Source: Opitutia bacterium (lineage in GTDB: Bacteria; Verrucomicrobiota; Verrucomicrobiia; Opitutales; Opitutaceae). Taken from it: a DNA stretch of 56,912 bases. Below, in pieces: positions 11,150 to 29,636 of the stretch. The notes beneath the pieces were generated by a model. That model was given only the letters and a program-made list of their open reading frames with translations, was not told the DNA's origin and made no database searches. The translations under genes and the position numbers were made by a program. The first letter of the stretch is position 1. Every line of letters starts with the position of its first letter. Location of the stretch: assembly GCA_947467625.1 (NCBI GenBank), contig CANIJN010000005.1:1-56912 (forward strand). Reading direction: 5' to 3'.

Positions 11150-11611
11150 TCAGGGCGCGAGGGTCTTCAAGCCGACAGCCTTCGCGAGGGCGGCTTGGCG
11201 CGTGTCGTAGGTCACAAACGTGCGTGCGCCGAGCTCCAGCGCGGAGGCCACGTGCAGCACATCGAGCGCGCGCGTGCCGAGTTTGGCGGTGTGGGTGCGG
11301 CTCAGTTCGGCGGTGCGATCAAGCGCGGCGCGCCAGAGAAGGTCGGTGATGACTAGCCGGCCGTTTGACAAATCGTCGCGGAAATGGGCGCGCACGGCCT
11401 CATGCTGGGAAGCATCGATGTCGCCTCGAAACTCGGCCAACGCGATCGCGTTAGTCAGTTCCGCCGAGACAAATTTCGTGATCGGGACTGCCCCGCGCAG
11501 CGTCGCACGCCACGCCACCATCGCACGCGTGCGCGGATCGTGGAGATAAAGCGCGCGGAGCGCGCTGGAATCGCAATAGCTCTCCTCAGCGGTCGCCACG
11601 GTTGGCCTCAT
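11150..11611 (-). CDS. PIN-domain toxin (VapC-like)
   Basis: The 153-residue protein shows the full acidic set of a PIN-domain ribonuclease: Asp14 (YCDSSAL), Glu51 (AELTNA), Asp117 (ALDVLHVA) and Asp136 (TYDTRQ). VapC-type toxins cleave tRNA or rRNA with magnesium held by these residues. Its start overlaps the end of the antitoxin gene by 26 bp, the usual toxin-antitoxin arrangement with translational coupling; a GTG at 11599 is an alternative start that shortens the overlap. Nothing suggests inactivation. It forms a self-contained unit between metabolic genes. Confidence 0.85.
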   Translation of the reverse strand: MRPTVATAEESYCDSSALRALYLHDPRTRAMVAWRATLRGAVPITKFVSAELTNAIALAEFRGDIDASQHEAVRAHFRDDLSNGRLVITDLLWRAALDRTAELSRTHTAKLGTRALDVLHVASALELGARTFVTYDTRQAALAKAVGLKTLAP

Positions 11612-11834
11612 CCAGCGCCTTCATTGCCGCATCGCTCATCGGCTTGGGCATATAGCTCAGCAACCGCGCGTAATAGTCGATCGGCGGCTGCGGCTTTTTC
11701 GGCTTCTCCGTGTAGGCGCGCAACACGAACGCCGCCTTGCCGCGATCGGTGATAATGACCTCGCCCTCGCGTTCGATCCGGTCGCGGATTTTCGGAAACG
11801 ACGTGCGCAATTCGCGGATGGTGGCGGTGCTCAT
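11586..11834 (-). CDS. Phd/YefM-like antitoxin
   Basis: This 82-residue protein resembles the Phd/YefM antitoxin fold at its N-terminus: TIRELRTSFPKIRDRI, then GEVIITDRGKAAFVL, which is the beta-hairpin region typical of the family. The C-terminal half (PPIDYYARLLSYMPKPMSD) would be the flexible segment that wraps around the toxin. It precedes and overlaps the PIN-domain toxin. A perfect 10-bp inverted repeat lies 3 bp upstream of the start codon and is the likely operator for autoregulation. No Shine-Dalgarno sequence is visible, so the mRNA may be leaderless or the operator may overlap the ribosome site. Confidence 0.82.
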   Translation of the reverse strand: MSTATIRELRTSFPKIRDRIEREGEVIITDRGKAAFVLRAYTEKPKKPQPPIDYYARLLSYMPKPMSDAAMKALDEANRGDR

Positions 11835-14313: not shown

Positions 14314-15822
14314 TCACCGGGGAGCTGATACGGCGGGGCGTTTTTGGATGGAGGGGTAGGGACGGCCGGCGATGAGGCGCGAGCCGTCGGTGAAACCCTC
14401 GGGGCGGTCGGTGAGTGTGCGGATCAGGCGGGAGCGCCAGTCGGCGAGCTCGATGGCGTGAGTGTCAACGGGGGCGAGGTCGTGTTCTTCGCGCGGGTCG
14501 GATTCCAGATTGAAGAGCTGCTCGGTGCCGTCGGCAGGGCGCCAGACGTATTTGTGGCGACCGTCGGTGAGCGCGTGGAAGGCTTGGGCGGGGCCGTAGG
14601 TGTTGGCGTGTTCGGAGTGGAGCGTGGCGCGGAGGGGCGTGGAGGCACCGCGCAAGGTGGCGACGAGACTGATGCCGTCCATGGGTTTGGGTGGCGGCAG
14701 GCCGGCGAGTTCGAGCAGCGTCGGCATGATGTCTTCCAGGCACACGGGTTGGAACGAGCGGAGGCCGGCCTTGAATGTGAGGTCGGGCGAGGCGGCGATG
14801 ATGAACGGGATGTTGGCGGAGCCCTCGTAGGGTTCGCATTTGCGGAAGTAGCCGTGGTCGCCGAGGAGTTCGCCGTGATCGGTGGTGAAGACGATAATCC
14901 ACGGGCGGCCGGCGGCGCGGCTGCGGGCGGTGAAGGCGGCGATGAGCGGGGCGAGCTGTGCGTCGAGGTGTTCGATGAGGCCGAAGTAGCCGGCTTGGGC
15001 AGCGCGAAGTTTGTCTCCTTCGAGGCGGATGCGGTGGCCGTTGCGGTCGCCGTCGGGAGAGAGTGCGTCCCACTTGACCCAATCGCCGCGCGCGGGAGCG
15101 GGGAGGGCGGCGGTGAGGTATTTGTCGAAGTAGGCTGGCGGAGGGAAGAGGGGTGGGTGCGGGGCGTAGAAGGAGGCGGTGAGAAACAGCGGTAGGGCGG
15201 GAGCAGTTTCGGTGATGACGGAACGGGCGCGGGCCGCTACCCAGGCGGTGGGGTGAAGTTCCTCGGGGAGCGCCCAAGGCTTGGCCTGCCAGAAATTCGT
15301 GGTGACGCCGAGGCTCTCGATCACGGCGCGGATGCCGCGAGATTCGGGGGCGGCGGCGCGGAGGGTGCGGTCGTAATCGTCGTCGGAGAGGTAGGTGGAG
15401 CCGAGGAGTTCGCGTTGGTAGCCGATGAATTTGTTCGGCGGGTTTTGGTGCATGTTGCGACCGACGAGCACCGTCGCGTAGCCGGCATCGGCCAGGAGCG
15501 CGGGGAAGGTCGGGTGCTTGATCGGGAACGGCGCGTAGCCGACGAGACCGCTCGTGGACGGGTGCAATCCCGTGAGCAGAGAAAGGCGAGCGGGGATGCA
15601 CGACGGGCAGGTGGAATACGCGCGGCGGAACAGGGCGCCCTCGCTTGCGAGGCGATCGAGGGTGGGGGTTTTGACGACGGGGTGGCCGACGGCGGAGAGG
15701 CTGTCGCCGCGCCACTGGTCGGGCATGAGCAACAGGATGTCGGGGCGCGGGGCGGCGGCGTGGGTACGGACGAGAACGCCGAGCAGAAAAACGAGGAGGG
15801 ACAGGTGGCGGATGGGGTGCAC
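14314..15822 (-). CDS. Secreted sulfatase (formylglycine type)
   Basis: The 502-residue protein has a signal peptide (residues 6-23) and a type I sulfatase fold. The active-site motif C-x-P-x-R reads CIPAR (Cys75 to Arg79), so Cys75 should be converted to formylglycine. Metal ligands are visible at Asp35 (LLLMPDQ) and Asp315-His316 (TTDHGELLGDHG), and PHPP at 221-224 fits the substrate pocket. These enzymes hydrolyse sulfate esters of glycans or small sulfated compounds. No maturase gene is in the window, so one must be supplied from elsewhere. The gene lies between the SpmA-SpmB fusion (37 bp upstream) and the double hydrolase (17 bp downstream), all on the minus strand. Confidence 0.92.
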   Translation of the reverse strand: MHPIRHLSLLVFLLGVLVRTHAAAPRPDILLLMPDQWRGDSLSAVGHPVVKTPTLDRLASEGALFRRAYSTCPSCIPARLSLLTGLHPSTSGLVGYAPFPIKHPTFPALLADAGYATVLVGRNMHQNPPNKFIGYQRELLGSTYLSDDDYDRTLRAAAPESRGIRAVIESLGVTTNFWQAKPWALPEELHPTAWVAARARSVITETAPALPLFLTASFYAPHPPLFPPPAYFDKYLTAALPAPARGDWVKWDALSPDGDRNGHRIRLEGDKLRAAQAGYFGLIEHLDAQLAPLIAAFTARSRAAGRPWIIVFTTDHGELLGDHGYFRKCEPYEGSANIPFIIAASPDLTFKAGLRSFQPVCLEDIMPTLLELAGLPPPKPMDGISLVATLRGASTPLRATLHSEHANTYGPAQAFHALTDGRHKYVWRPADGTEQLFNLESDPREEHDLAPVDTHAIELADWRSRLIRTLTDRPEGFTDGSRLIAGRPYPSIQKRPAVSAPR

Positions 15823-17248: not shown

Positions 17249-17467
17249 CGGGGGATGATTTCAACGATGCGGGTGGGCGGATGGGGAGCCAGCGCGAAAG
17301 TGGCGGGGCGCGACGCAGGAGGTGGCGCGAAAGTTCCCGCACGGGGTCGGCGCTTCGGAACTAAAGTTGCCAAGCAACACGGAAGGAACTCTCGTCGCGC
17401 TATGAACGTTGCCGGCAATGTGAACGAAGACCTGGCCTGGCTCCCTATGGGGAGTCTTGGACGATGC

Positions 17468-17473
17468 GGAGGT
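17468..17473 (+). promoter_or_regulatory. Shine-Dalgarno site fixing the kinase start
   Basis: GGAGGT lies 7 nt before GTG 17481. It is one of the few strong ribosome-binding sites in the window and argues for that GTG over the TTG eight codons upstream. Confidence 0.6.
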
Positions 17474-17480
17474 CAGGCGC

Positions 17481-19589
17481 GTGGTTGACCGTGGGAAGTA
17501 TTCGGGGCGATGGAGAGCGGGCCGTTTCTCTCTCCTGTGGTTTTGGGCGGCTTGGGCGGTGGCTGCACTCGGCGCCGACGCGGTGGAGCCGGTGCTCACG
17601 AGTGTCGCGGAAATAAAATTGCTGACCCCACAGGAGGCGGGGAAGGGACGGTCCGTGCGGTTGCGAGGTGTTATCACGGTTTGGCTGGGCAGCCGAAACG
17701 GCTCGTTTTTGCAGGATGAAACAGGTGGGGTTTTTATCGCGATGCGGCAGGGCGGCACGACGTTTGTGCGTGTCGGGGATTGGGTGGAATGCCGGGGCCG
17801 CACGGCACCGGGCGGCTACGCGCCGATGGTGCAGTTGGAGCAGTTTGACTACCTTGGGCGGAAGGAGATTCCCACTCCCGTGGCGATGAGTTTGGGCGAG
17901 TTCTCCACCGGTCGACACGACGGAGAGTGGGTGGAAACGCGAGGAATTGTGCGGAGCGTGATTCAGTCCAATCTGGACGCGCGGCCGGAGCTGCAAGTCG
18001 CCTTGGGTCAGGAGCGACTCCGCGTTCCAATCTACGATGTGCAAAGCGAGGTGCCCGAGAACTTGGTGGATGCGGAAGTGCGACTGTTTGGGACCGCCAG
18101 CGGCTACTTTAATCAGGATCGGCAACTTTTGATGCCGGCGCTGAGAGTGTCTGACTGGAGCCAGGTGGTCGTCACACGGCCCGCGTCGGGAGATCCGTTT
18201 GCGTCCGACCTGCGCTCGACAACGAGCCTGTTTCGCTATGCACCCGGCGATCGCTGGGACCATCGCTGCAAGCTCAAGGGCGTGGTGACACATGCTATCC
18301 CCGGAAAAGTTTTGTTTATCCGTGACGATGACGGCGCCCTCTATGTCGAGACGACGCAAGCCACTCCGCTGAAACCGGGCGATGTGGTGGAAGTGGCCGG
18401 ATTCCCCGCCATCGGATTGGGGACAACCTATCTCCAAGATTCGGTGTTTCGCGTCGTGGGTTCTGCGGCGGCCCCCGCGCCCGTGGCTGCAAATCCGGAG
18501 ATGATCGTGCAGGGCAAGGTCCGTCCCAGCGAGTTGGTCGCGATCGAGGGTGTGCTCGTGGAAACGACGCGGCTGCGCGACCGCTGGATGCTCACGTTGA
18601 AGGCGGCGGAGCACACTTTTGATGTCGATTTGGACGCGTCGCCTACCGGCGCCGCGGCGACCTGGCCCGAACGTGACAGCCGGCTGCGAGTCGTCGGAGT
18701 CGTCTGGAACGAACGAGTTGATTCCCGAAGCCGCAACATTGTGCCCGAGTCGTTTCGCGTGCTGCTGCGCTCGGCGGCGGATATCACAGTAATCGAGCGG
18801 GCCTCGTGGTGGACGGATGCGCGGTTGGAAAGAGTCATTGGGACGCTGCTCATTGTGATGGTGGCGGCCTTGGGCTGGATCTGGCTGTTGCGGCGGCGGG
18901 TGGACGCACAGACCGCGACCATCGCCGAGAAGGTGGCGCGCGAAGCCGTCGCCGAGGAGCGCGCCCGGACAGCGTGCGAAATCCACGACACCGTCGCACA
19001 GGGATTCATGGCGCTCGGCTTTCAATTGGAAGCGCTCTCTTCGGAATTGCGGGAGGCCAGCCCGCCCGTGCGGCAGCAGTTGGATCGGACGATGAAAATG
19101 CTGCGCCACAGTCACGAGGAGGCGCGGCACTCGTTGAAGCAAATGCGCGGCCGCTCGGAAGAAACCAAAGGGCTTTCGCCGGCTCTGCGGGAAGCGATGG
19201 AGCGCGGCATCGCGAACTTCACCCCCGAGCATTTTCGCTATCTGGAGAAAGGCACGCCGTTCCCGCTCCCGGAACTCGCCGAACACAACATTCTGCGCAT
19301 CGCGCAGGAAGCCGCCGCCAACGCGGCGAAGCACGCGTCCGCGCGCAATCTCGAGGTGGAACTGAGCTTCGAGGCGGACGGGACGCGCGTGCGGATCGCG
19401 GACGATGGTTGCGGCTTCGAGTTGCGGCCGACCGCGGACTTGGCCTCCGGCGACCACTTCGGCCTCCAGATCATGCACGAGCGAGCGCAGCGGATCGGAG
19501 CCAGTCTGAAAATTCGTTCTCAGCCCGGCGCGGGCACGGAGGTCATTTTATTTCTCCCGCGAGTTGCCGCTCAACGGCAGACTGCTTGA
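17481..19589 (+). CDS. Sensor histidine kinase (HisKA_3 type) with OB-like periplasmic region
   Basis: With start GTG 17481 the protein has 702 residues. A membrane anchor or signal (FSLLWFWAAWAVAALGA) precedes a periplasmic region of about 410 residues with repeated OB-fold-like patterns: SVRLRGVITVW...GSFLQDETGGVFI...GDWVECRG, then CKLKGVVTHA...VLFIRDDDGALYV...GDVVEVAGF, then VAIEGVLVET. A transmembrane helix at about 455-471 (IGTLLIVMVAALGWIWLL) leads to a NarL/DegS-type dimerisation domain (ACEIHDTVAQG, phospho-acceptor His502). The ATPase domain follows (NILRIAQEAAANAAKH, DDGCGFE). It should phosphorylate the response regulator 20 bp downstream in answer to a periplasmic signal. TonB receptor 2 comes next, a likely target. 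Confidence 0.9.
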   Translation: MVDRGKYSGRWRAGRFSLLWFWAAWAVAALGADAVEPVLTSVAEIKLLTPQEAGKGRSVRLRGVITVWLGSRNGSFLQDETGGVFIAMRQGGTTFVRVGDWVECRGRTAPGGYAPMVQLEQFDYLGRKEIPTPVAMSLGEFSTGRHDGEWVETRGIVRSVIQSNLDARPELQVALGQERLRVPIYDVQSEVPENLVDAEVRLFGTASGYFNQDRQLLMPALRVSDWSQVVVTRPASGDPFASDLRSTTSLFRYAPGDRWDHRCKLKGVVTHAIPGKVLFIRDDDGALYVETTQATPLKPGDVVEVAGFPAIGLGTTYLQDSVFRVVGSAAAPAPVAANPEMIVQGKVRPSELVAIEGVLVETTRLRDRWMLTLKAAEHTFDVDLDASPTGAAATWPERDSRLRVVGVVWNERVDSRSRNIVPESFRVLLRSAADITVIERASWWTDARLERVIGTLLIVMVAALGWIWLLRRRVDAQTATIAEKVAREAVAEERARTACEIHDTVAQGFMALGFQLEALSSELREASPPVRQQLDRTMKMLRHSHEEARHSLKQMRGRSEETKGLSPALREAMERGIANFTPEHFRYLEKGTPFPLPELAEHNILRIAQEAAANAAKHASARNLEVELSFEADGTRVRIADDGCGFELRPTADLASGDHFGLQIMHERAQRIGASLKIRSQPGAGTEVILFLPRVAAQRQTA

Positions 19590-19609
19590 TTCATCGAGAC
19601 CGAAGGAAA

Positions 19610-20239
19610 ATGACTACAGCCCCCATTCGTATCCTGCTCGTCGACGACCACCTCATGGTTCGGCTGGGCCTCGCCAGTATGCTCGGCCGGGAGCGCGATC
19701 TGCAGGTGGTGGCCGAGGCCAGTTCCGGGGCCGAAGCGATCAAGCAGTGCGAGGTTCATCGCCCGGACGTCGTGTTGATGGATATTCGCCTGCCTGACAT
19801 GAGCGGGATCGAGGCCACTGCGGTCATCGTGAAGCAGCGTCCCGAAATCAAAGTCGTCATGCTGACGACCTATGAGGGCGACGAAGATGTCTTTCAGGCG
19901 ATCAAGGCGGGCGCCAAAGCGTATTTTACGAAGTCAGTGGCCGGGCCCGAACTGGTGCAGGCGATCCGGGCGGTCCACGGTGGACAGTTTTGTCTTCCTC
20001 CGGATATCGCCGGGAAGTTGGCGCAGCGCTATTCGCTACCGGAGCTCACGCCCCGCGAGCGCGAAATCCTCGAGCGCATCGCCGGCGGACGCAGCAACAA
20101 GGAAATCGCCGCGCTGCTCAATCTGGCGGAAAACACCGTCAAGAATCACGTGCACGTCATTTTGGAAAAGCTCGGCGTGCAGGACCGCACCCAAGCGGTC
20201 ACGAACGCCATCAAGCGCGGCATTCTGCACATCGGGTAG
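19610..20239 (+). CDS. LuxR/NarL-family response regulator
   Basis: The start is ATG 19610, preceded by the purine-rich GAAGGA; the open frame upstream overlaps the kinase gene and is not coding. The 209-residue protein has a receiver domain (RILLVDDHLMVR at 8-19, phospho-acceptor Asp58 in VVLMDIRLPD, and FTKS near 105) and a C-terminal LuxR helix-turn-helix (LTPREREILERIAGGRSNKEIA, NTVKNHVHVILEKLGV). Phosphorylation by the preceding kinase should promote dimerisation and DNA binding. TonB receptor 2 and its four downstream genes begin 162 bp later on the same strand and are the obvious candidate regulon. Confidence 0.95.
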   Translation: MTTAPIRILLVDDHLMVRLGLASMLGRERDLQVVAEASSGAEAIKQCEVHRPDVVLMDIRLPDMSGIEATAVIVKQRPEIKVVMLTTYEGDEDVFQAIKAGAKAYFTKSVAGPELVQAIRAVHGGQFCLPPDIAGKLAQRYSLPELTPREREILERIAGGRSNKEIAALLNLAENTVKNHVHVILEKLGVQDRTQAVTNAIKRGILHIG

Positions 20240-20401
20240 TCGGGCAGGTCGGGGTGGTATCCGAAAGGACTAGTTCGGCTTGGTCCGAATGAGGCGAGGG
20301 GGTGCATTGCAAGATCAGGACGGGGGTGGCGTCTATGGTTTTATCCCAGCGAGAGCCCCTTTTCCCGCAGGTAGCCTGCGACCTCGTCAACGATCCATCC
20401 T

Positions 20402-23176
20402 ATGAACCCCAATAAAACTTGTGCCTGCCGGATCTCCCTCCTGCTGGGCCTGACAGTGTCTCATTTGGCCGCGCAGACAGCGCCGGCCGTGCCAACCGAA
20501 ACCATCGAGCTGAGTCCGTTTGTTATCACCACGGATAAAGACGTAGGCTACCTCGCAGCCAACACGCTTTCAGGCAGTCGACTGAACACGAAGCTTTACG
20601 ACACGTCGGCTTCGATTTCCGAGATGACTCAGGAATTTCTCATTGATATCGGAGCGAATGACACGATGGCGGCGGTGGACTACGCGCTCGGATTTGAATC
20701 CGACCGAGCCGGCGCGACCGACAACATATCGCAGTTCAACTCCCAGAATGTGGTGGCGCGCGGGGTGGGTCGCAGCGGCACGGTCGCGCGCGACTTCTTT
20801 TCGTGGAACCTCAGTTCCGATTCCTTCAGCACGGAACGCTTGAGTCTGAGTCGTGGGCCCAATTCGGTGCTCTACGGTATCGGCAATGCGGGCGGCATTA
20901 TCAACAGCACGTCGAAACGCGCCAACTTCCGCCGTGCGACCGAGGTGAATCTCAAGGTGGACGCCGACAACAGTTGGCGCTTTCACATCGACCACAATCA
21001 ACCGTTGGGGAGCAAACTCGCCCTGCGCGTAAATGTGCTGGCGGATGACATGCGCACTTGGCGGGAACTCGAATACACGAAAGACCAGCGGGCCCAACTC
21101 GCCGGCACGTGGCGGCCGTTCAAACGCACGGAAATCCGGGCTGACTATGAACGTGGACGGCAGGATCGGCTCATCGGGCTGCGGTTTTCCGCCCGCGACT
21201 ATTTTCTCCAATGGGCGGATGCCGGCTCGCCGGCCTACGACCGGGCGATCAACGGCAATACCTATCCGACCGGCACGGTGGCTTGGAGCACGGTGCCGCG
21301 TTTGGGATATAACGGCGACGATAACCAATGGTTCAACTATCAGCGCTTTGCCCGGACGCGTGGTCGCGACGGCTTGACGAGCGATGGTGTCAAATTGGCG
21401 AATGAAACCTATCTGCCGTTTTCTGCGGTGATCGGCGGTCCGGCATCGACTTCGAACAACGCCTACTGGACGGGTTCGGTTTTTCTCCAGCAGGAGCTGA
21501 GCAAGAACCTCTATGTCGAACTGGCCGTGAACAAACAATACAGTGAACGCACCGTGCTCCGGGGCGTGTCGCAGAATTTCATGGGACTGATGCAGGATCC
21601 CAACAAGACCCTCCCCAACGGAGCGGCCAACCCGCGCTACGGGCAATTCTTCATGGAGGGGCAGGCACTGAAAAACATCGCGACCGGCAATACCCTGAAC
21701 AAGCGGGCGTCGCTGACCTACGAGTTCGATTTGAAAAACAAATGGCTCGGGCGCCACCGTTGGCTGGCTCTGGCCACGAGTGAAAACTCGGACAATCTCG
21801 TCAAGCAGTTGAACGAGGCAAATCTCACGCCGTTGAGTCCGACGTTGCCCGCTCTGACCAATGCCCAGAACACGATCAACCGCCGCACCTATCTGAATTT
21901 CAACGGTGGCAATCGTTACTTCAATCAGGATCCCTTCCGCACGGTCCAGGCGCCGATTCCGTTCACGGACTCGGTCAACGGTTTGGCGGGCACGATTACC
22001 CCGGGCTTTTTCGTCAGCAGTCTGACCCCCTCCACATCGGTCAACGATGCGATGATGATCGCCGGTCAGAGCACCTTTTTGAATGATCGGCTGTCCTTCA
22101 CCTATGGCCTCCGCCACGACAAAGCGGACCGGCAGAACAGTTTCCTCGTGCGCAACCCCACGACGCAGGAGGTGACTGGCGCGACCTTGACGCCGACTTC
22201 CACTTACAGCGGCAACACGCAGACGCTCGGGTCGGTCGTTCATCTCACCCCGTGGGTTTCTGTCTATGGCAACCGCTCGCAAAACTTTACGCCGCAGTCG
22301 GCATTGGACGTCTCGGGCGAAAACATCGGCAACGTGCAGGGCAAAGGTAAGGACTACGGGCTCAAGTTCAGGCTCGGCGACAATCGGCTTTATGCCCGGG
22401 TAGGCTACTACACGTCGTCGGCCGTGGGAACCGTTGCCCGGAATTCCGCGGTTATATTCAATATCCAAAACATCTGGTTGGCGATTGAGGGAGCCAGCGG
22501 ACCGCACGCGGTCAAATTTACGGGCAGTCCGGGCAACAACACCGATACCCAGGATTTCAACGTGGAAGGCTATGAGTGCGAGGTGACGGCGAATCCGTTC
22601 AAGGGCCTGGCGCTCACGCTCAACTATGCGACGCTGAATGGTAAGACGAGCAATCTCTACCCGAACAGCCGGGCCCACGTGGCCGCAAACCGTGCGCTCT
22701 GGGCTGCGAACAGCAGCCTGCCGCTGACGACCGGCGGCGGTGGCACGGTAGGCGGCACCTTGGCCGCGATCGATGCGCTGCAGGTTCAGGATAATTTGCA
22801 GAACAGCCGGGAAGGCGCGGGTAACTATCGCGATTCATTCAACGCGTTTGGGCGCTACGAATTTCAATCACCGAAGCTGAAGGGTTGGAGTGTGGGCGCC
22901 GGAACCCGTTTCCGAACGGGCCGCGTGCTCGGCTATAACGCCAGCGCACAACCCATTCGCGCGCCAAAGCTGTTCATGGCCGACGCCAACCTCGCCTATC
23001 GGCGCCCGATCTGGAACAAGCAGGTAAATATGCGGCTGCAGGTGAATATCCAAAACCTCTTCGACAATCAGGATCTGATCTGGGCTTCGATTGATCCCGT
23101 GACCTACGTGAAAAATGACTACACCCTTTTCACGCCTCGCCAAATTACTCTCTCCGCCAGTTTCCAGTTTCGATGA
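20402..23176 (+). CDS. TonB-dependent outer-membrane receptor 2
   Basis: The 924-residue protein has a signal peptide (ISLLLGLTVSHLAAQ), then IELSPF at 35-40 as a possible TonB box. The plug follows (SGSRLNTKLYDTSASISEMTQEFLID, RGPNSVLYGIGNAGGIINSTSKR) and then the barrel. It ends QITLSASFQFR, with the terminal aromatic one position from the end. The gene lies 162 bp behind a two-component system and 94 bp ahead of four closely packed secreted-protein genes. The gap before it contains a small hairpin (CGCAGG-TAG-CCTGCG, 20366-20380) that could be a regulator site. The ligand is unknown; the context suggests an oligosaccharide or other degradation product. Confidence 0.93.
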   Translation: MNPNKTCACRISLLLGLTVSHLAAQTAPAVPTETIELSPFVITTDKDVGYLAANTLSGSRLNTKLYDTSASISEMTQEFLIDIGANDTMAAVDYALGFESDRAGATDNISQFNSQNVVARGVGRSGTVARDFFSWNLSSDSFSTERLSLSRGPNSVLYGIGNAGGIINSTSKRANFRRATEVNLKVDADNSWRFHIDHNQPLGSKLALRVNVLADDMRTWRELEYTKDQRAQLAGTWRPFKRTEIRADYERGRQDRLIGLRFSARDYFLQWADAGSPAYDRAINGNTYPTGTVAWSTVPRLGYNGDDNQWFNYQRFARTRGRDGLTSDGVKLANETYLPFSAVIGGPASTSNNAYWTGSVFLQQELSKNLYVELAVNKQYSERTVLRGVSQNFMGLMQDPNKTLPNGAANPRYGQFFMEGQALKNIATGNTLNKRASLTYEFDLKNKWLGRHRWLALATSENSDNLVKQLNEANLTPLSPTLPALTNAQNTINRRTYLNFNGGNRYFNQDPFRTVQAPIPFTDSVNGLAGTITPGFFVSSLTPSTSVNDAMMIAGQSTFLNDRLSFTYGLRHDKADRQNSFLVRNPTTQEVTGATLTPTSTYSGNTQTLGSVVHLTPWVSVYGNRSQNFTPQSALDVSGENIGNVQGKGKDYGLKFRLGDNRLYARVGYYTSSAVGTVARNSAVIFNIQNIWLAIEGASGPHAVKFTGSPGNNTDTQDFNVEGYECEVTANPFKGLALTLNYATLNGKTSNLYPNSRAHVAANRALWAANSSLPLTTGGGGTVGGTLAAIDALQVQDNLQNSREGAGNYRDSFNAFGRYEFQSPKLKGWSVGAGTRFRTGRVLGYNASAQPIRAPKLFMADANLAYRRPIWNKQVNMRLQVNIQNLFDNQDLIWASIDPVTYVKNDYTLFTPRQITLSASFQFR

Positions 23177-23270
23177 GTGCACGGTGCGATGCAGTGCGTG
23201 GGCCGGCCACGCTCGTTGAGACTTCCCGGCCGGGCGCAAGATCGGTAAACTTTCGTTCTTAAATCCTCCC

Positions 23271-24020
23271 ATGAAAATCCATTCATTCTGTTCCGTTCTC
23301 CTTCTGCTTAGCTTCGCCTCTGCGGCTGCGCTTGGTCGCGCGGCCGACTCCTCCGCGAAATTGCCACCACCTTGGCAGAATCAAGATATCGGTAGCGGGC
23401 GGGTCGGCACAGAAGTCCCGCCGGTGCCGGTCGAGAAGTTTGGCAAGAACGCCCTGTTTGGAAAAGGTGCGCAGATCGCCGGCAACGCAAAGCACGCCGA
23501 CGGCGTGTTCACGTTGCAGGGCACGATGGATATCTGGGGACCGATGGACGGAGGCCAAGTCGTCTGGCAAAAGGTGCAGGGCGACATCGAGATCGTCGCC
23601 CGTGTCACGAGCATGGATAATCCCGGAAAGAATGCCCACGCGAAGGCCGGCCTTTGTATTCGCGAATCGCTCGAAGGAGCGGCGCGGAGCGTGACGCAGT
23701 GCATCACGCCCGTCGACGGCTCGCAGTTTTTGTATCGCGCCGCGAAAGCCGAGAAGACCGATCGCGTTCGACCCGACCCCGCCGCGCCGAAGCCCAGCGT
23801 GCCCAAGGAAAAATTCCCCTGCTGGCTCAAGCTCGTGCGAAAAGGCAATGTCTTCACCGGCTACGAATCCCTCGATGGCGAAACCTGGTGGCACACCGGC
23901 ACAATCACCCTCGATTTGAAGGCGGATGCCTTGGTGTGCCTCACGACGTCGTCGCATACCACCAACACTCTGACCACGGCGGTGTTCGATCACGTCACGC
24001 TGAGCGCGAAGTCCAAATGA
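23271..24020 (+). CDS. Secreted DUF1349-like beta-sandwich protein
   Basis: The 249-residue protein has a signal peptide (residues 4-24) and a beta-sandwich resembling DUF1349/concanavalin-like domains: FTLQGTMDIWG, VQGDIEIVARVTSMD, HAKAGLCIRESL, CWLKLVRKGNVFTGYESLDGETW and VCLTTSSHTTNTLTTAVFDHV. Such modules usually bind carbohydrate rather than cleave it, and no catalytic residues can be singled out. Its stop codon overlaps the next start (ATGA at 24017-24020), so translation of the two is coupled. It is the first gene behind TonB receptor 2. Confidence 0.75.
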   Translation: MKIHSFCSVLLLLSFASAAALGRAADSSAKLPPPWQNQDIGSGRVGTEVPPVPVEKFGKNALFGKGAQIAGNAKHADGVFTLQGTMDIWGPMDGGQVVWQKVQGDIEIVARVTSMDNPGKNAHAKAGLCIRESLEGAARSVTQCITPVDGSQFLYRAAKAEKTDRVRPDPAAPKPSVPKEKFPCWLKLVRKGNVFTGYESLDGETWWHTGTITLDLKADALVCLTTSSHTTNTLTTAVFDHVTLSAKSK

Positions 24021-25027
24021 GGCGCGCCATGCATGCCACACTCGGCGGAAAACTCATAACCGCTACCGTCCTGTTGGCAGCGATTGCCCTCACCCCGGCC
24101 ATGGCCCAAGGCAAAGCCAAGGCTACCGCCCAACCCGGGCAACTGGGTCGGGTGATGACCATCGGGATCGACGGGTCCGATCCGCGGCTGGTTTGTGAAG
24201 CGGAAGGAATTCAGGCGCCCAACTGGACGCCCGACGGGAAATGGCTCGTCTGCAACGGCATCATCGCGGGGAGCAAGGTGCTGCTCCGAGTCGCCGCCGA
24301 CGGCAGCACCCAGCCGGAGTTGATTCCGACCGGCACGATGAAGGTGGCGAGCAACGACCATGTGCTTTCGCCCGACGGGAAGACGATCTACTTCACCGTG
24401 AACCCGCATCTCTACGCGGTGCCGTTCGCGGGCGGCACACCCCGGCGCATTTCCAACGAGCACCCGGCTGCGACGGCGTTCAAATATTTCCTTCACGGTG
24501 TTTCGCCCGACAACAAGACACTTGCCTACGTCGGTGTGAGTGCCGTCGGCGACGATGCGTGGGGGCGGGCTGACATCTTCACGATACCTGTCGCCGGCGG
24601 CCCGGATACGCGACTGACGGACACACCGGCGCCCGATGACGGCCCCGAGTATTCGCCCGATGGTAAGTGGATTTACTTCAACTCCGAATTAAACGCGAAG
24701 GTGCCCGGCCATTCGCAGTGCTACCGCATGAAGTCCGACGGCAGCGGCATCGAACAACTTACCCACGATGAGCGGGTGAACTGGTTTCCGCACATCTCGC
24801 CGGACGGGAAGTGGATCGTCTATCTCAGCTATCCGCCCGGCACGTTGAAGCACCCGGCCAACAAGGCGGTCATTCTTCGACGCATGCGACCTGACGGCAG
24901 CGAGCAGGCCGACATCATCGCGTTCAACGGCGGCCAAGGCACCATCAACGTCAACAGCTGGGCACCCGACAGCAGGCGCTTCGCCTATGTCGACTATCCG
25001 GTTCAGCCCGCCGCGAGTTCGAAGTAG
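24017..25027 (+). CDS. Secreted six-bladed PD40/TolB-like beta-propeller
   Basis: I take ATG 24017, which overlaps the previous stop; ATG 24029 is an alternative that keeps the signal peptide (LITATVLLAAIALTPAMAQ). The 336-residue product contains six PD40 repeats: PNWTPDGKWLVCN, VLSPDGKTIYFT, GVSPDNKTLAYV, EYSPDGKWIYFN, HISPDGKWIVYL and SWAPDSRRFAYV. This makes a complete six-bladed propeller like the TolB C-terminal domain, without the TolB N-terminal domain. It is probably a periplasmic scaffold or lyase-like enzyme; oligogalacturonide lyases share the fold, but I see no proof of activity. It is the second gene of the four-gene group. Confidence 0.82.
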   Translation: MRRAMHATLGGKLITATVLLAAIALTPAMAQGKAKATAQPGQLGRVMTIGIDGSDPRLVCEAEGIQAPNWTPDGKWLVCNGIIAGSKVLLRVAADGSTQPELIPTGTMKVASNDHVLSPDGKTIYFTVNPHLYAVPFAGGTPRRISNEHPAATAFKYFLHGVSPDNKTLAYVGVSAVGDDAWGRADIFTIPVAGGPDTRLTDTPAPDDGPEYSPDGKWIYFNSELNAKVPGHSQCYRMKSDGSGIEQLTHDERVNWFPHISPDGKWIVYLSYPPGTLKHPANKAVILRRMRPDGSEQADIIAFNGGQGTINVNSWAPDSRRFAYVDYPVQPAASSK

Positions 25028-25039
25028 CTAAGCACGGAT

Positions 25040-26002
25040 ATGAAACGGCTCCAGTTGGCTGTTCGTTCGATTGCTCTCGTTTTCGTCGCTGAGCTTTCAC
25101 TCCACGCGGCGGATGCGGTGGAGCGTCCCCGTATCGTTGGCATCGCCGAGGTTTCGCTCTTTGTGCACGACCTCGAAAAATCGCGGACCTTCTACAAGGA
25201 GTTCCTCGGCTTCGATGAGCCCTACTCGCTCAAGGGTGAAAACGGCGCGGTGAGTCGGACGTGGATCAAAGTCAGTGATCGGCAAACGATTGAACTGGTC
25301 CCCGAGCAGGCTACCGGAACCGATCGGCTCAATCGTATCTCGTTACAGGTGGACGATGCCGAAGCGATGCGTCGCTACCTGGCGGCGCGCGGGATAAAGG
25401 CGCCGGACGCAATCAGCAGAGGCAAAACCGGTGACCCCAATTTTTCGGTGCGCGATCCCGACGATCACGTCGTCGCGTTTGCGCAGTCTACGCCGGATGG
25501 GTGGATGTGGCGCGAGCAGGGCAAGTTTCTACCCGAGTCGCGCGTTTCGACGCGGATTTCTCATGTGGGGTTGCTCGTCGGAGACCTCGAAGCGGGGCTG
25601 GGCTTTTATCGGGGCATCCTCGGCGGGAGGGAGACCTGGCGCGGCGGGGCCAATCCGAACGTGCTCACCTGGGTGAACGTGAAGTTGCCCGAGGGAGAGG
25701 ATTACCTCGAATTCATTCTCTATGCCGCGCTCCCGGCGCCCAACAAACGCGGTGGCACCCACCATCTCTGCCTCGAAGTTCCCGATGTTGAAAAGACCAA
25801 GGCTACGCTGATGGCGCGAGCCGCGCGCATTGGCTACACACGAGAAATCGAAATCAAAACGGGCGTCAATCGTCGCCGCCAGATCAACCTCTTCGATCCC
25901 GATGGCACGCGTGTCGAGGTCATGGAGCCCAATACCGTGGACGGTAAACCCGTTCCGTCCTCGACCGCCCGGCCGCCCAGCAGCCGAGCTCCTGCTTTGT
26001 GA
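25040..26002 (+). CDS. Secreted two-domain VOC (glyoxalase-like) protein
   Basis: The 320-residue protein has a signal peptide (SIALVFVAELSLHAA) and two vicinal-oxygen-chelate domains. The second domain (about 170-297) has the canonical metal set His175 (SHVGLLV), Glu224 (YLEFILY), His241 or His242 (HHLCLEV) and Glu293 (VEVMEP). The first (about 33-150) has serine where the first histidine would be (AEVSLFV), and ISLQV where the other is expected, so it probably lacks metal. VOC enzymes include glyoxalases, dioxygenases and epimerases; most are cytoplasmic, so secretion is unusual. The stop overlaps the next start (GTGA at 25999-26002). The activity is unknown. Confidence 0.83.
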   Translation: MKRLQLAVRSIALVFVAELSLHAADAVERPRIVGIAEVSLFVHDLEKSRTFYKEFLGFDEPYSLKGENGAVSRTWIKVSDRQTIELVPEQATGTDRLNRISLQVDDAEAMRRYLAARGIKAPDAISRGKTGDPNFSVRDPDDHVVAFAQSTPDGWMWREQGKFLPESRVSTRISHVGLLVGDLEAGLGFYRGILGGRETWRGGANPNVLTWVNVKLPEGEDYLEFILYAALPAPNKRGGTHHLCLEVPDVEKTKATLMARAARIGYTREIEIKTGVNRRRQINLFDPDGTRVEVMEPNTVDGKPVPSSTARPPSSRAPAL

Positions 26003-27090
26003 ATATCAAGCGCCTCCTCCTTGTTTTCCTCGTCACCGCAGCACTGCTCGGCGCAGCCGATTTGCCCGGCGTGAAATGGCATCCCGGCCACTATATTTTT
26101 GTGGCAAGATCGCCGCTCACCAAGGAGCTGCTTACGCTGCCACATTTTCGTGGCGTGCAAAAGGTCTACGTCTGGCGGGACTTTGAAACGGCGAAGGGGC
26201 GCTACGATTTCTCCGCGCTGAGAGCCGATCTGGCGCTGGTGAAGAAATACGACCGGCAACTCGTCGTGCAGTTTTCCTACAAGAAATTCTTCGTGAAGGG
26301 TCGGAGCGTGCCCGACTACCTGATCGGACCGGATTATGGCGGGGGAGTGTATGGCGAATCGGATTTGGTCATCTGGAACAAGAACGTGATCGCGCGGTTC
26401 GAGGCGATGTTGGCCGCGTTTGGACGCGAGTTTGATCGCGATCCAAATTTGGAGGCGATAAATCTGCCCGAGACGGCGTTGGGATCGGTCGGGCAAGTGG
26501 CCAAGTTGGAAACGTCACCGCCCAAGGGCATCGAGCCCTATAGTGAGCAGGCGTATCTCTCGGCGCTCAAACGGCAGATGTTCGCGTTGCGCCACGCGTT
26601 TCCGAATACGGTCGTCATCCAATACATGAACTTTCCGGTGACGATCATCGATGAGGTGAGTGACTACGCGAAAGAGATCGGCGTCGGCATGGGCGGACCG
26701 GACGTCTATCCGCGCGAAGACAGCCGGCTAAGCGATCCTCAAACGGGAGTCTATCGCCTCTATGAGAAACTCGCCGGCACAGTGCCGATGGGCGCTGCCG
26801 TGCAGAAGGAAAATTATTCCCTGGCCGCCAAGAAACAATCGGGCTGGGGACGCGTGCATCTCGGCAAGGTCGTGCCCGGCGATGAAGTCCCTTTCCCGGT
26901 CCGCGAGCACCTCCAGATGGCGCAGAATAAACTGAAGCTGAATTACGTCTTCTGGTTCATGGATCCGGCGCATCTCAACGCAGACGTGATCAAGCTGGTT
27001 GCTGAGCCTGACCTCGTGAACGATCCGGCTGGTGGTCTCGAAACCAAACGTCCGCCCAAGGCGTTTTTCCTTGGGCTACCTTTGAGGTGA
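25999..27090 (+). CDS. Secreted TIM-barrel glycoside-hydrolase-like protein
   Basis: The gene starts with GTG overlapping the previous stop codon. The 363-residue protein has a signal peptide (LLLVFLVTAALLGAA) and features of a (beta/alpha)8 glycosidase of the GH42/GH5 type: YVWRDFETAKGRYDFSALRADL near 57-78 (the usual WxxxEPxxGxYDF theme), QLVVQFSYK, INLPETALG (Glu158, a candidate acid/base at the end of strand 4) and LNYVFWFMDP near the C-terminus. I cannot name a nucleophile with certainty, so activity is unproven. It closes the four-gene group behind TonB receptor 2, and it converges with the FAD oxidoreductase gene 174 bp away. Confidence 0.65.
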   Translation: MNIKRLLLVFLVTAALLGAADLPGVKWHPGHYIFVARSPLTKELLTLPHFRGVQKVYVWRDFETAKGRYDFSALRADLALVKKYDRQLVVQFSYKKFFVKGRSVPDYLIGPDYGGGVYGESDLVIWNKNVIARFEAMLAAFGREFDRDPNLEAINLPETALGSVGQVAKLETSPPKGIEPYSEQAYLSALKRQMFALRHAFPNTVVIQYMNFPVTIIDEVSDYAKEIGVGMGGPDVYPREDSRLSDPQTGVYRLYEKLAGTVPMGAAVQKENYSLAAKKQSGWGRVHLGKVVPGDEVPFPVREHLQMAQNKLKLNYVFWFMDPAHLNADVIKLVAEPDLVNDPAGGLETKRPPKAFFLGLPLR

Positions 27091-27264: not shown

Positions 27265-28674
27265 TCAGGCGGTCTCGCGGGTTTTGTCGCGGAGGGCGGC
27301 GATTTCGGGCCAGCGGAGCTCGTGCGGGAGAGATTTGCCGGAGGCGGCGAGAGCGGCGGCCGCGCCGGCGGCTTCGCCCATGGCGACGGCGTTGCCGGTG
27401 ACGCGGTAGCTCGCGTGGGCTAGGTAGTCGCCGCTGATGCAGCGGCCGGCGAGGAGGAGGCCGTCGACATCGCGGGCGACGAGGGCGCGGTAGGGAATAT
27501 CGTAGGGCAGCGCCTTCACGCCGCTGTTGGTGTAGCCGCCGCCGGCGTGGGCTTTGTCGTAGGCGTGGATATCGACCGGAAACGTGGGGCGCACCACGGC
27601 GTCGGCGTGGCGGGCGCCGGCGACGAGATCGGCGCGGTTGACGATGTAGCGACCGCGGATGCGGCGGCCGTCGCGAATGCCGATCTGCTCGGGCGTGGCG
27701 GCAATCTGAATACCGTCCCACGGGCCGCCGAGTTTGCGGAGGCCGTGGACGATGCGGTGGAGCTCGGCGCGGGCGTTGAGGGTGGCGGCGGTGAGCTTGA
27801 CGGCGTCGAAGGCGAGGATGCCGTATTCGTGATTCATCATCGCGAGGAGGAGATTGTCGCGGATGGGGAACAGCGTGGGCATCATGTAGGACGGCGTGAC
27901 GCCGCCGCGGATGATCTCGGCGCGGAAGGCACGTTTGGTGGCCTCGACGTTGGTGGTCTGCGCGCGGTGGATAAATGGGGCGAGGGCGGTGTGGTCTTTG
28001 ACGACGAGGAGGGCGCACATCGAGAGCGGCTGGCACGGGCACTCTTTGGTTTCGCCGGTTTCCCATTCGCAGCCGGCGAGAGCGCCGAGGTCGCCGTCGC
28101 CCGTGGTGTCGATGAAGACGGGGGCGCGCCAGGCTTGGCGGCCGGATTTCGACTCGGTAACGACGGTGGCGAGACGGCGGCCCTCTCGGTAGGCGGCGAC
28201 GACGTGGGTATGGAGTTGGATCTTCACGCCGGCGGCGAGACAGAGTTCGTCGAGGAGGACCTTCATTTCCTCGGGCTGATAGGTCATCGCGGACTTGCTC
28301 GGGATTCGGCGGGCGTCGCGGGCATCGAGTTTGCGCACGAGCTCCTGGTTGAAACCGGGTTTGTCGAAATCGAGGAGGTAGCCGAGGAGCGAAGAGGTCC
28401 ACACACCGCCGAGGGCGCCGTGGGCTTCGAAGAGACGGACGCGGGCCCCGGCGCGTGCGGCCGTGATGGCGGCGGTGACGCCGGCGGGACCGGCGCCGCA
28501 CACAATCACATCGGCGTCGCCGGCGAGCGGGACGGCGCGGGCGGGCTCGGCGAATGTGCCGGGCGCGGCGGTAGGGACGGTGGCGCCGCGGGCGAGCAAG
28601 GGGGCGGACGCGGCGGCGGTGACGGAAGCGGAGAGGAAGCGGCGGCGATTCATGGGGGGTGTGGCGCGGGGCAT
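27265..28674 (-). CDS. Exported FAD-dependent oxidoreductase (PF12831 type)
   Basis: I place the start at ATG 28674, whose A is the last base of the upstream stop (TAATG), implying coupled translation; ATG 28653 (MNRRRFLSAS) is an alternative. Either way a twin-arginine-like signal is present. The 469-residue product has the FAD dinucleotide fold (DVIVCGAGPAGVTAAI at about 55-70, EAHGALGGVW), and TTGDGDLGALAGCEWETG matches the FAD-dependent oxidoreductases of the PF12831 group. A C-terminal FAD motif reads VDGLLLAGRCISGDYLAHASYR. Members act on sugars or are of unknown substrate. Export of a flavoprotein by Tat is plausible, since cofactor is loaded first. It is the last gene of a long minus-strand cluster. 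Confidence 0.87.
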   Translation of the reverse strand: MPRATPPMNRRRFLSASVTAAASAPLLARGATVPTAAPGTFAEPARAVPLAGDADVIVCGAGPAGVTAAITAARAGARVRLFEAHGALGGVWTSSLLGYLLDFDKPGFNQELVRKLDARDARRIPSKSAMTYQPEEMKVLLDELCLAAGVKIQLHTHVVAAYREGRRLATVVTESKSGRQAWRAPVFIDTTGDGDLGALAGCEWETGETKECPCQPLSMCALLVVKDHTALAPFIHRAQTTNVEATKRAFRAEIIRGGVTPSYMMPTLFPIRDNLLLAMMNHEYGILAFDAVKLTAATLNARAELHRIVHGLRKLGGPWDGIQIAATPEQIGIRDGRRIRGRYIVNRADLVAGARHADAVVRPTFPVDIHAYDKAHAGGGYTNSGVKALPYDIPYRALVARDVDGLLLAGRCISGDYLAHASYRVTGNAVAMGEAAGAAAALAASGKSLPHELRWPEIAALRDKTRETA

Positions 28675-29636
28675 TACGGTTTCGACGCAGGCGGAGTTAC
28701 GAGCGTGGGCGGGCCAGTGAGCCAGCCGAGGGACGTGAGAAATTTGTCGGCTGCGATGAGCGTGAGGCGGTAGTGGGTGTTGTCGCCGCGACCGTAGTTG
28801 AAGAAGCCGTGCTCTTGGCCGTCGTAGAGGTGGAGGTCGCAACGGCCGCCGATCTTCTCGATTTCGGTTTTCATTTTCTGCGCGCTGACGACGGTAATGT
28901 TTTTATCGGCGCGGCCGAGGAAGTGGATCGTGGGCGGGAAATTCGGGTAGAGGTTGTGGAGGGGTGAGATGGTTCTCCACTTGTCACCCATCGCGGCCTC
29001 GACCTTGGCGAAGGCTCGGCTGCCGGGGCCGCGGTCGATCATGGAATTGAAGAGGATAATGGCGTTGGGACGTGTGCTCGTGGAAGTGTCCTCGCCAGGT
29101 TGATCGAGGCCGCTGAGCGTGGTGACGGCGGCGGCGAGAAATCCACCGGCGGATCCGCCAGCGACGGCGATGCGCTGAGGATCGAGACCGAGGTCGGCGG
29201 TGTGCTGGCGGACCCAACGCATGGCGGAGAACGCGTCCATGATCGCCTCGTGTTGCGTCGTCTGGTGGCGCGTGCGGATGCGATATTCGACGGAGATCGC
29301 GACGAGTCCGCGTGAGGCGAGGTATTGGGCTTGGGCGTAGAAATTGGACGGGGCGCCGACGTTGAAGCCGCCGCCGTGAAAGAAAACGATCCCGGGTTTC
29401 GGCGTCGCGGCGGCGTGACCGGGAGGGTTGAAGATGCTGACGCTCAGCGTGACGGCGCCGATGGTTTTGTAGGGGACGATGCGGTCGGGTTGGATGTGCG
29501 CGGCGGCATCGGCCGCGGCGGCGTCGACTTCCACGCCGGCGCCCGTGGCGGTTTTGGTGGTGGGACGGGCGGCGGGTTGGGCGGAGAGCGCGGAGGCGAG
29601 TAGCGTGAGGAGTGTGAAGCGGAGGCGGAGGGGCAT
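28674..29636 (-). CDS. Secreted alpha/beta hydrolase (esterase/lipase-like)
   Basis: The 320-residue protein has a signal peptide (residues 6-22) and a hormone-sensitive-lipase/BD-FAE-like hydrolase fold. The oxyanion motif HGGG is at 87-90, the nucleophile motif GGSAGG has Ser162, and Asp244 (GRADK) and His276 (QEHGFF) complete the triad. ISVEYRIRT and DAFSAMRWVRQH are typical of this family. It should hydrolyse small esters, perhaps acetyl or feruloyl groups on glycans. Its stop codon shares a base with the next start codon, and it begins 44 bp after the stop of TonB receptor 3, with a small hairpin between them. Confidence 0.9.
   Translation of the reverse strand: MPLRLRFTLLTLLASALSAQPAARPTTKTATGAGVEVDAAAADAAAHIQPDRIVPYKTIGAVTLSVSIFNPPGHAAATPKPGIVFFHGGGFNVGAPSNFYAQAQYLASRGLVAISVEYRIRTRHQTTQHEAIMDAFSAMRWVRQHTADLGLDPQRIAVAGGSAGGFLAAAVTTLSGLDQPGEDTSTSTRPNAIILFNSMIDRGPGSRAFAKVEAAMGDKWRTISPLHNLYPNFPPTIHFLGRADKNITVVSAQKMKTEIEKIGGRCDLHLYDGQEHGFFNYGRGDNTHYRLTLIAADKFLTSLGWLTGPPTLVTPPASKP

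Follow-up and report, generated by a model that had tools for sequence, protein, structure and literature searches.

A TonB receptor followed by four secreted genes in an Opitutaceae genome: a possible glycan module made of parts found elsewhere

The closest described counterparts of the genes considered here are the TonB-dependent carbohydrate utilization (CUT) loci of freshwater Verrucomicrobia, in which a receptor is accompanied by a regulator and secreted carbohydrate proteins, SusD being unmentioned in the parts of the paper drawn on here; the same parts describe sulfatases of these bacteria as neighbours of glycoside hydrolases and of lyase-type and carbohydrate-binding proteins (He et al. 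2017, PMC5615132). We analysed a stretch of 56,912 nucleotides from an Opitutia bacterium of the Opitutaceae (assembly GCA_947467625.1, contig CANIJN010000005.1), hereafter the window, which holds a TonB-dependent receptor gene preceded by a two-component system and followed by four genes for putative secreted proteins. Like the CUT loci it has a receptor with an adjacent regulator, but the loci in those parts of the published account also include recognised glycoside hydrolases and sugar transporters of the inner membrane, whereas the window has neither and its TIM-barrel protein has no named family (PMC5615132). In the sources consulted in part on VOC proteins in 3-keto and polysaccharide loci, or on DUF1349, PD40 and Opitutaceae receptor loci, including PMC13274419, no description of this set was found. 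The open reading frames bear out the order given by an earlier reading of the letters alone (the sequence-only reading), with all five genes, receptor first, in one direction:

17457 to 19589, plus strand: sensor histidine kinase (HisKA_3 and HATPase_c) with a long N-terminal putative sensor region
19610 to 20239, plus strand: NarL-type response regulator (receiver and GerE)
20402 to 23176, plus strand: TonB-dependent receptor of 924 amino acids, Plug just below the Pfam cut-off, siderophore-receptor-like by NCBIfam
23271 to 24020, plus strand: LECT, a secreted, weakly DUF1349-like protein of 249 amino acids, of the family that forms the LECT part of LECT-PD40 fusions
24029 to 25027, plus strand: PD40 beta-propeller protein, start chosen from relatives (24017 in the sequence-only reading)
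25040 to 26002, plus strand: secreted two-domain VOC (glyoxalase-fold) protein with an H175/H242/E293 triad in its C-terminal domain
25999 to 27090, plus strand: secreted TIM-barrel protein of 363 amino acids with a glycoside-hydrolase-like fold, overlapping the VOC gene by GTGA; no Pfam or NCBIfam family

We see about an even chance that these genes form a receptor-linked module, controlled by a two-component system of its own, that takes up and processes a glycan of acidic and probably sulfated type. The kinase would sense a ligand outside the cytoplasm and the regulator would then induce the receptor gene together with the four that follow. LECT and the PD40 protein may form a joint exported unit for carbohydrate binding or scaffolding; the barrel, which is distantly clan GH-A-like, may act on the glycan or on oligosaccharides from it; the VOC protein could carry out a metal-dependent step on a sugar; and the receptor would import the product. 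Comparison with relatives suggests that the locus is a mosaic for sugar-polymer processing, put together from parts used elsewhere, rather than a conserved five-gene system.

The full five-gene order, for which the sequence-only reading had proposed a search, was not found in any examined relative of any part, and a conserved five-gene system was rejected for that reason; the utilisation unit it had in mind remains a fair reading as a receptor-linked secreted unit, and falls as one conserved unit of five genes. What is still conserved is the pair of LECT and PD40, the same pair with the barrel in Verrucomicrobiaceae metagenome-assembled genomes (MAGs), and, within another gene group, the VOC protein. 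The barrel has its closest relatives in four of these MAGs (loci L016 to L019) at 82–86% identity, while those within the window's own family reach a lower 56–64%, and in a tree of 17 rows, the 21 of the alignment less four fragments, the window groups with the Verrucomicrobiaceae MAGs with a support of 96/100. Three of the four MAGs also hold LECT (69–70%) and PD40 (74–76%), giving a triad with an identity range of 68–86% in a gene order that differs from the window: the barrel precedes LECT-PD40, directly upstream in L017 and L019 and about 5.4 kb upstream in L016. No match to the window VOC or receptor was found in these pieces. Of the 372 genomes belonging to the window's order, ten gave a barrel match: the window's own, two with two close copies each (G319 and G280) and seven with distant matches only (E 3.3e-32 or weaker). 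As a side observation, a DAO-type oxidase (Pfam) stands beside the triad in L017 (14243–17156) and L019 (9354–12273), and the rest of the genes there resemble what we take to be phosphonate-metabolism genes.

This distribution bears on a different explanation, which we hold to be possible though rather less probable, that the locus consists of functionally unrelated neighbours: a two-component-controlled receptor, whose ligand could even be a metal chelate, next to a separately gained four-gene secreted run. Receptor and triad occur together in no examined relative, and the grouping of the barrel with Verrucomicrobiaceae MAGs rather than with the window's own family implies that the triad has its own history; the match of the receptor to siderophore-type models and the gap of 94 nt that separates it from LECT point the same way. 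Against this, the genes are co-directional, no plus-strand terminator- or promoter-like site was found by scanning that gap, which is weak evidence, and all five genes have a lowered G+C content at third codon positions (GC3), 0.70–0.79 compared with 0.81–0.88 in the flanking genes. The latter were the nearest minus-strand genes, two measured after the module and four before the kinase; the kinase (0.75) and regulator (0.78) are also low. Since the GC3 of other window genes likewise falls to 0.65–0.78, the low values of the module are a mere hint of separate origin.

The reading as a module for a sulfated, acidic glycan draws on the surroundings of the barrel relatives. Sulfatases were found in 9/12 verrucomicrobial barrel pieces compared with 2/27 comparison pieces (Fisher p 4.7e-5), and with related loci merged in 5/7 barrel pieces (p 0.0014). 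The comparison set comprised 16 of 20 PD40-protein pieces (the four shortest left out) and 11 VOC pieces, and the sequence compared amounted to 227 kb of barrel pieces and 506 kb of comparison pieces. The queries of the first count came mostly from barrel loci; the count was repeated with three outside queries, two of them from the two positive comparison pieces. In L017 a chondroitinase-B-like gene (Chondroitinas_B, PF14592) accompanies sulfatases near the barrel, in L032 apiosidase-like and GHL6 genes and two sulfatases are found, and in L034 there is one sulfatase (Pfam). Barrel relatives also occur in betaproteobacteria, actinobacteria and one cyanobacterium, and on plasmids (L022 to L031 and L136 to L138); one of these, in L023, lies among genes that by eye are glycosyltransferase- and flippase-like. 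The plasmid relatives, distant and all labelled hypothetical, are on seven plasmids of Vibrio, Rhizobium, Serratia, Ewingella, Enterobacter and Xenorhabdus, with unrelated neighbour genes in the three regions inspected. A search of plasmids for close matches gave nothing and phages gave no barrel match, and on these grounds, together with the unrelated genes around the distant plasmid copies, a mobile or plasmid-borne module was rejected.

Searches with the barrel itself gave nothing in Pfam or among Protein Data Bank (PDB) sequences at E 1, nor in NCBIfam at E 0.1. An AlphaFold model built with 21 sequences has eight strands and a mean pLDDT of 86.6, and on this model the protein is a true TIM barrel, as the sequence-only reading had guessed. 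Treating rows no more than 1 Z apart as tied, the best folds are GH14 beta-amylases (Z 21.4, 293 aligned positions, root-mean-square deviation 3.4) and GH35 beta-galactosidases (Z 20.0, 281 aligned, 3.2), followed by GH164 at a Z of about 18. The family profile also finds GH35 beta-galactosidases among PDB sequences (E 3e-5), over 60 positions in the region of strands 2 to 3 only. With the GH35 and GH42 models the window barrel gives no family at E 0.1, and weak hits appear in its relatives, with Glyco_hydro_42 in 9/21 (best 0.00097) and GH35_fam in 11/21 (best 2.3e-7). The clan GH-A beta-galactosidases of GH35 and GH42, and by fold the GH14 beta-amylases, resemble the barrel in having a TIM barrel, a W..E..G.YDFS motif region after strand 2 and a strand-4 glutamate, with a distant sequence link in the case of GH35 and GH42, but the window barrel differs in matching no family model and in lacking the strand-7 glutamate.

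All 21 aligned members share twelve invariant residues (H31, G52, W59, E63, Y69, F71, P105, Y107, A140, E158, F201 and N211), and D235 is kept in all 19 sequences that reach that position. E158 follows strand 151–156, at the end of strand 4, where clan GH-A enzymes have their acid/base glutamate. The position of the beta-7 nucleophile, taken from strand ends rather than from superposed coordinates, is Q269 in the window, after strand 264–268, and among the 18 aligned members with a residue there it is Q in 14, E in two, D in one and H in one. With this residue directly after strand 7, the barrel resembles a relative of clan GH-A in which the customary second catalytic glutamate has been lost or never existed.

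The prevalence of glutamine at beta-7 (14/18), and the binding-type folds of PD40 and, if it is lectin-like, of LECT, would fit a barrel that is a glycan-binding pseudo-enzyme within a capture-and-signal unit. We regard this as unlikely, because E158, H31, W59, E63 and N211 (21/21) and D235 (19/19) resemble a kept active site, and two relatives have a glutamate and one an aspartate at beta-7. Less likely still, to our minds a long shot, is that the barrel founds a new secreted, metal-dependent sugar-cleaving family that breaks glycans through an elimination or some other non-classical mechanism, and that it works together with the VOC protein in a periplasmic pathway for keto-sugars. A metal site like that of xylose-isomerase-like barrels is conceivable since E158, N211, D235 and the Q/E/D/H at 269 end four consecutive strands (4 to 7).

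The VOC label is secure, Glyoxalase (PF00903) matching over the cut-off (E 3.3e-25) in two stretches, which indicates paired modules; the HpaD-type extradiol dioxygenase model TIGR02295 gives 42 bits of the 321 needed. In the C-terminal domain H175, H242 and E293 are invariant in 12/12 aligned rows and form a triad of putative metal ligands, of the type usual for the fold. The window protein alone among the 12 rows lacks H99 and E146 of the N-terminal domain, and has E37 where most have His. Matches at E <= 1e-20 occur in 12/372 genomes of the order, at 18 places, and 11 of the 17 places outside the window were examined, including a second copy in the window's own genome (contig C68). Seven of the 11 loci (L061 to L066 and L068, from the window's family) share a conserved gene group consisting of an AP_endonuc_2 barrel, 3keto-disac_hyd, a TonB receptor, an ECF sigma factor, FecR with Laminin_G_3 and the secreted VOC protein, with ThuA present in four of the seven and only a short 3-keto match in L063. 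An AP_endonuc_2-like match stands alone in L069, and L059, L060 and L067 have none of these partners. The VOC relatives thereby resemble the 3-keto-glycoside clusters with beta-eliminase-type barrels in likewise lying beside 3keto-disac_hyd and AP_endonuc_2, while the window module differs in having none of those partner genes, and the abstract and outline of that study name no VOC protein (Bitter et al. 2023, PMC10628242).

Evidence on the other two secreted proteins comes from fusions. Within the window's order 74/372 genomes have a LECT match at E <= 0.001, in many cases as a domain inside a very long frame, and 27/372 have a match to the PD40 protein at E <= 1e-20. In 20 of the 27 non-self PD40 matches, whose loci were examined with a LECT profile, LECT and PD40 lie in a single open frame in 16 (L085, L086, L088 to L090, L092 to L098 and L100 to L103), and LECT precedes the propeller in 14, which is the window's arrangement, and follows it in two; the LECT domain is only partly matched in L093 and L096. 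By the same profile it is absent from L084, L087 and L091 and undetected in L099. The fusions are about 500–575 amino acids long, mostly one per genome and in varied surroundings. They combine the two domains of the window genes, as a rule in the window's order, but in the window and three Verrucomicrobiaceae loci these are two separately exported proteins, and from sequence comparison we read the window's LECT and PD40 as the split version of what is usually a single-chain protein. This counterpart in a single protein is the strongest sign that the two work together. The PD40 repeats are clear (Pfam E 2.1e-23), in agreement with the sequence-only reading; the TolB equivalog TIGR02800 gives 86 bits of the 343 needed. 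The beta-sandwich label given to LECT fares less well, resting on a DUF1349 match below the cut-off (E 0.0042, 17.2 bits compared with a gathering score of 32.4). Its relatives in L017 and L058 score 22.5 and 21.9 bits, a profile search of PDB sequences found nothing convincing, and the attempt to derive the fold from a predicted model was abandoned at a pLDDT of 47.

The receptor is assigned by NCBIfam (E 6e-20), with Plug at E 1e-4, just under the cut-off. The HisKA_3 kinase and NarL-type regulator are directly upstream on the same strand, as had been proposed, the TTG at 17457 being merely the earliest possible start of the kinase, for which 17511–19589 was used too. This arrangement is repeated in the genome, in which 116 stretches match the receptor (several per receptor): three close kinase paralogues (E <= 1e-50; contigs C5, C9 and C79) are accompanied by a regulator and then a receptor on the same strand in 3/3, and the kinase-regulator-receptor order is as in the window on C9 (L133), where two receptors follow, and on C79 (L134). 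A weaker fourth kinase (C65) has a regulator behind it and no receptor. In other genomes a receptor start comes right after the regulator in at least 3/29 short kinase loci (L120, L124 and L128), drawn from 44 rows; these pieces stop about 1.5 kb past the kinase and make the receptor count a lower bound. A Sus-type locus would have a SusD-like partner, but SusD-like_3 (PF14322) has no match across the whole genome, a control genome being positive and other SusD Pfam families not covered. The lack of SusD, which the sequence-only reading presented as a special feature, carries no weight given this genome-wide absence, and was rejected as a distinguishing trait.

The spacing within the four-gene run is 8 (or -4), 12 and -4 nt, from which joint production of the four products was inferred. 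Two overlaps had been taken as signs of this. The GTGA at 25999 is sound, with no alternative in-frame start nearby, and the N-terminus V/M-N-I-R recurs in the two closest full-length relatives of the barrel. The ATGA at 24017 was dropped because PD40 probably begins at 24029: three Verrucomicrobiaceae loci (L016, L017 and L019) start with ATG-CAC 8 nt past the LECT stop, and in the window the TGA stop is followed by 8 nt and then ATG-CAT at 24029. All four proteins have N-termini like signal peptides, judged by eye. A scan for regulatory sites gave 2 promoter-like sites for 2.1 expected and 14 terminator-like sites for 8.2 expected, which is uninformative on operon limits.

Several points weigh against a glycan module. 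The nearest NCBIfam models of the receptor are siderophore receptors, with scores far under their cut-offs, and the module (17457–27090) contains neither a sugar transporter of the inner membrane nor a gene of sugar catabolism. With glutamine in place of the beta-7 nucleophile, hydrolysis by the barrel is not assured. No sulfatase was detected in 3/12 barrel pieces, and in the window the nearest is outside the module run, about 10 kb from the barrel. It is one of two genes flanking the module:

14314 to 15822, minus strand: sulfatase (PF00884), upstream on the opposite strand, no established module membership
27265 to 28842 (longest frame), convergent: FAD-dependent oxidoreductase, downstream of the module

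Elsewhere in the window, at 11150–11834, two small adjacent open reading frames are by eye antitoxin- and PIN-type-toxin-like.

If the reading as a glycan module is true, the locus would tie four as yet unassigned secreted families to glycan use in Verrucomicrobiota. The conserved context of the VOC protein offers a testable pointer to a possible new step in the metabolism of 3-keto-sugars. The barrel is the most useful part, being present in several phyla, without a Pfam or NCBIfam name and annotated as hypothetical wherever annotation was seen, and its family is now open to testing on sulfated and uronic-acid glycans.

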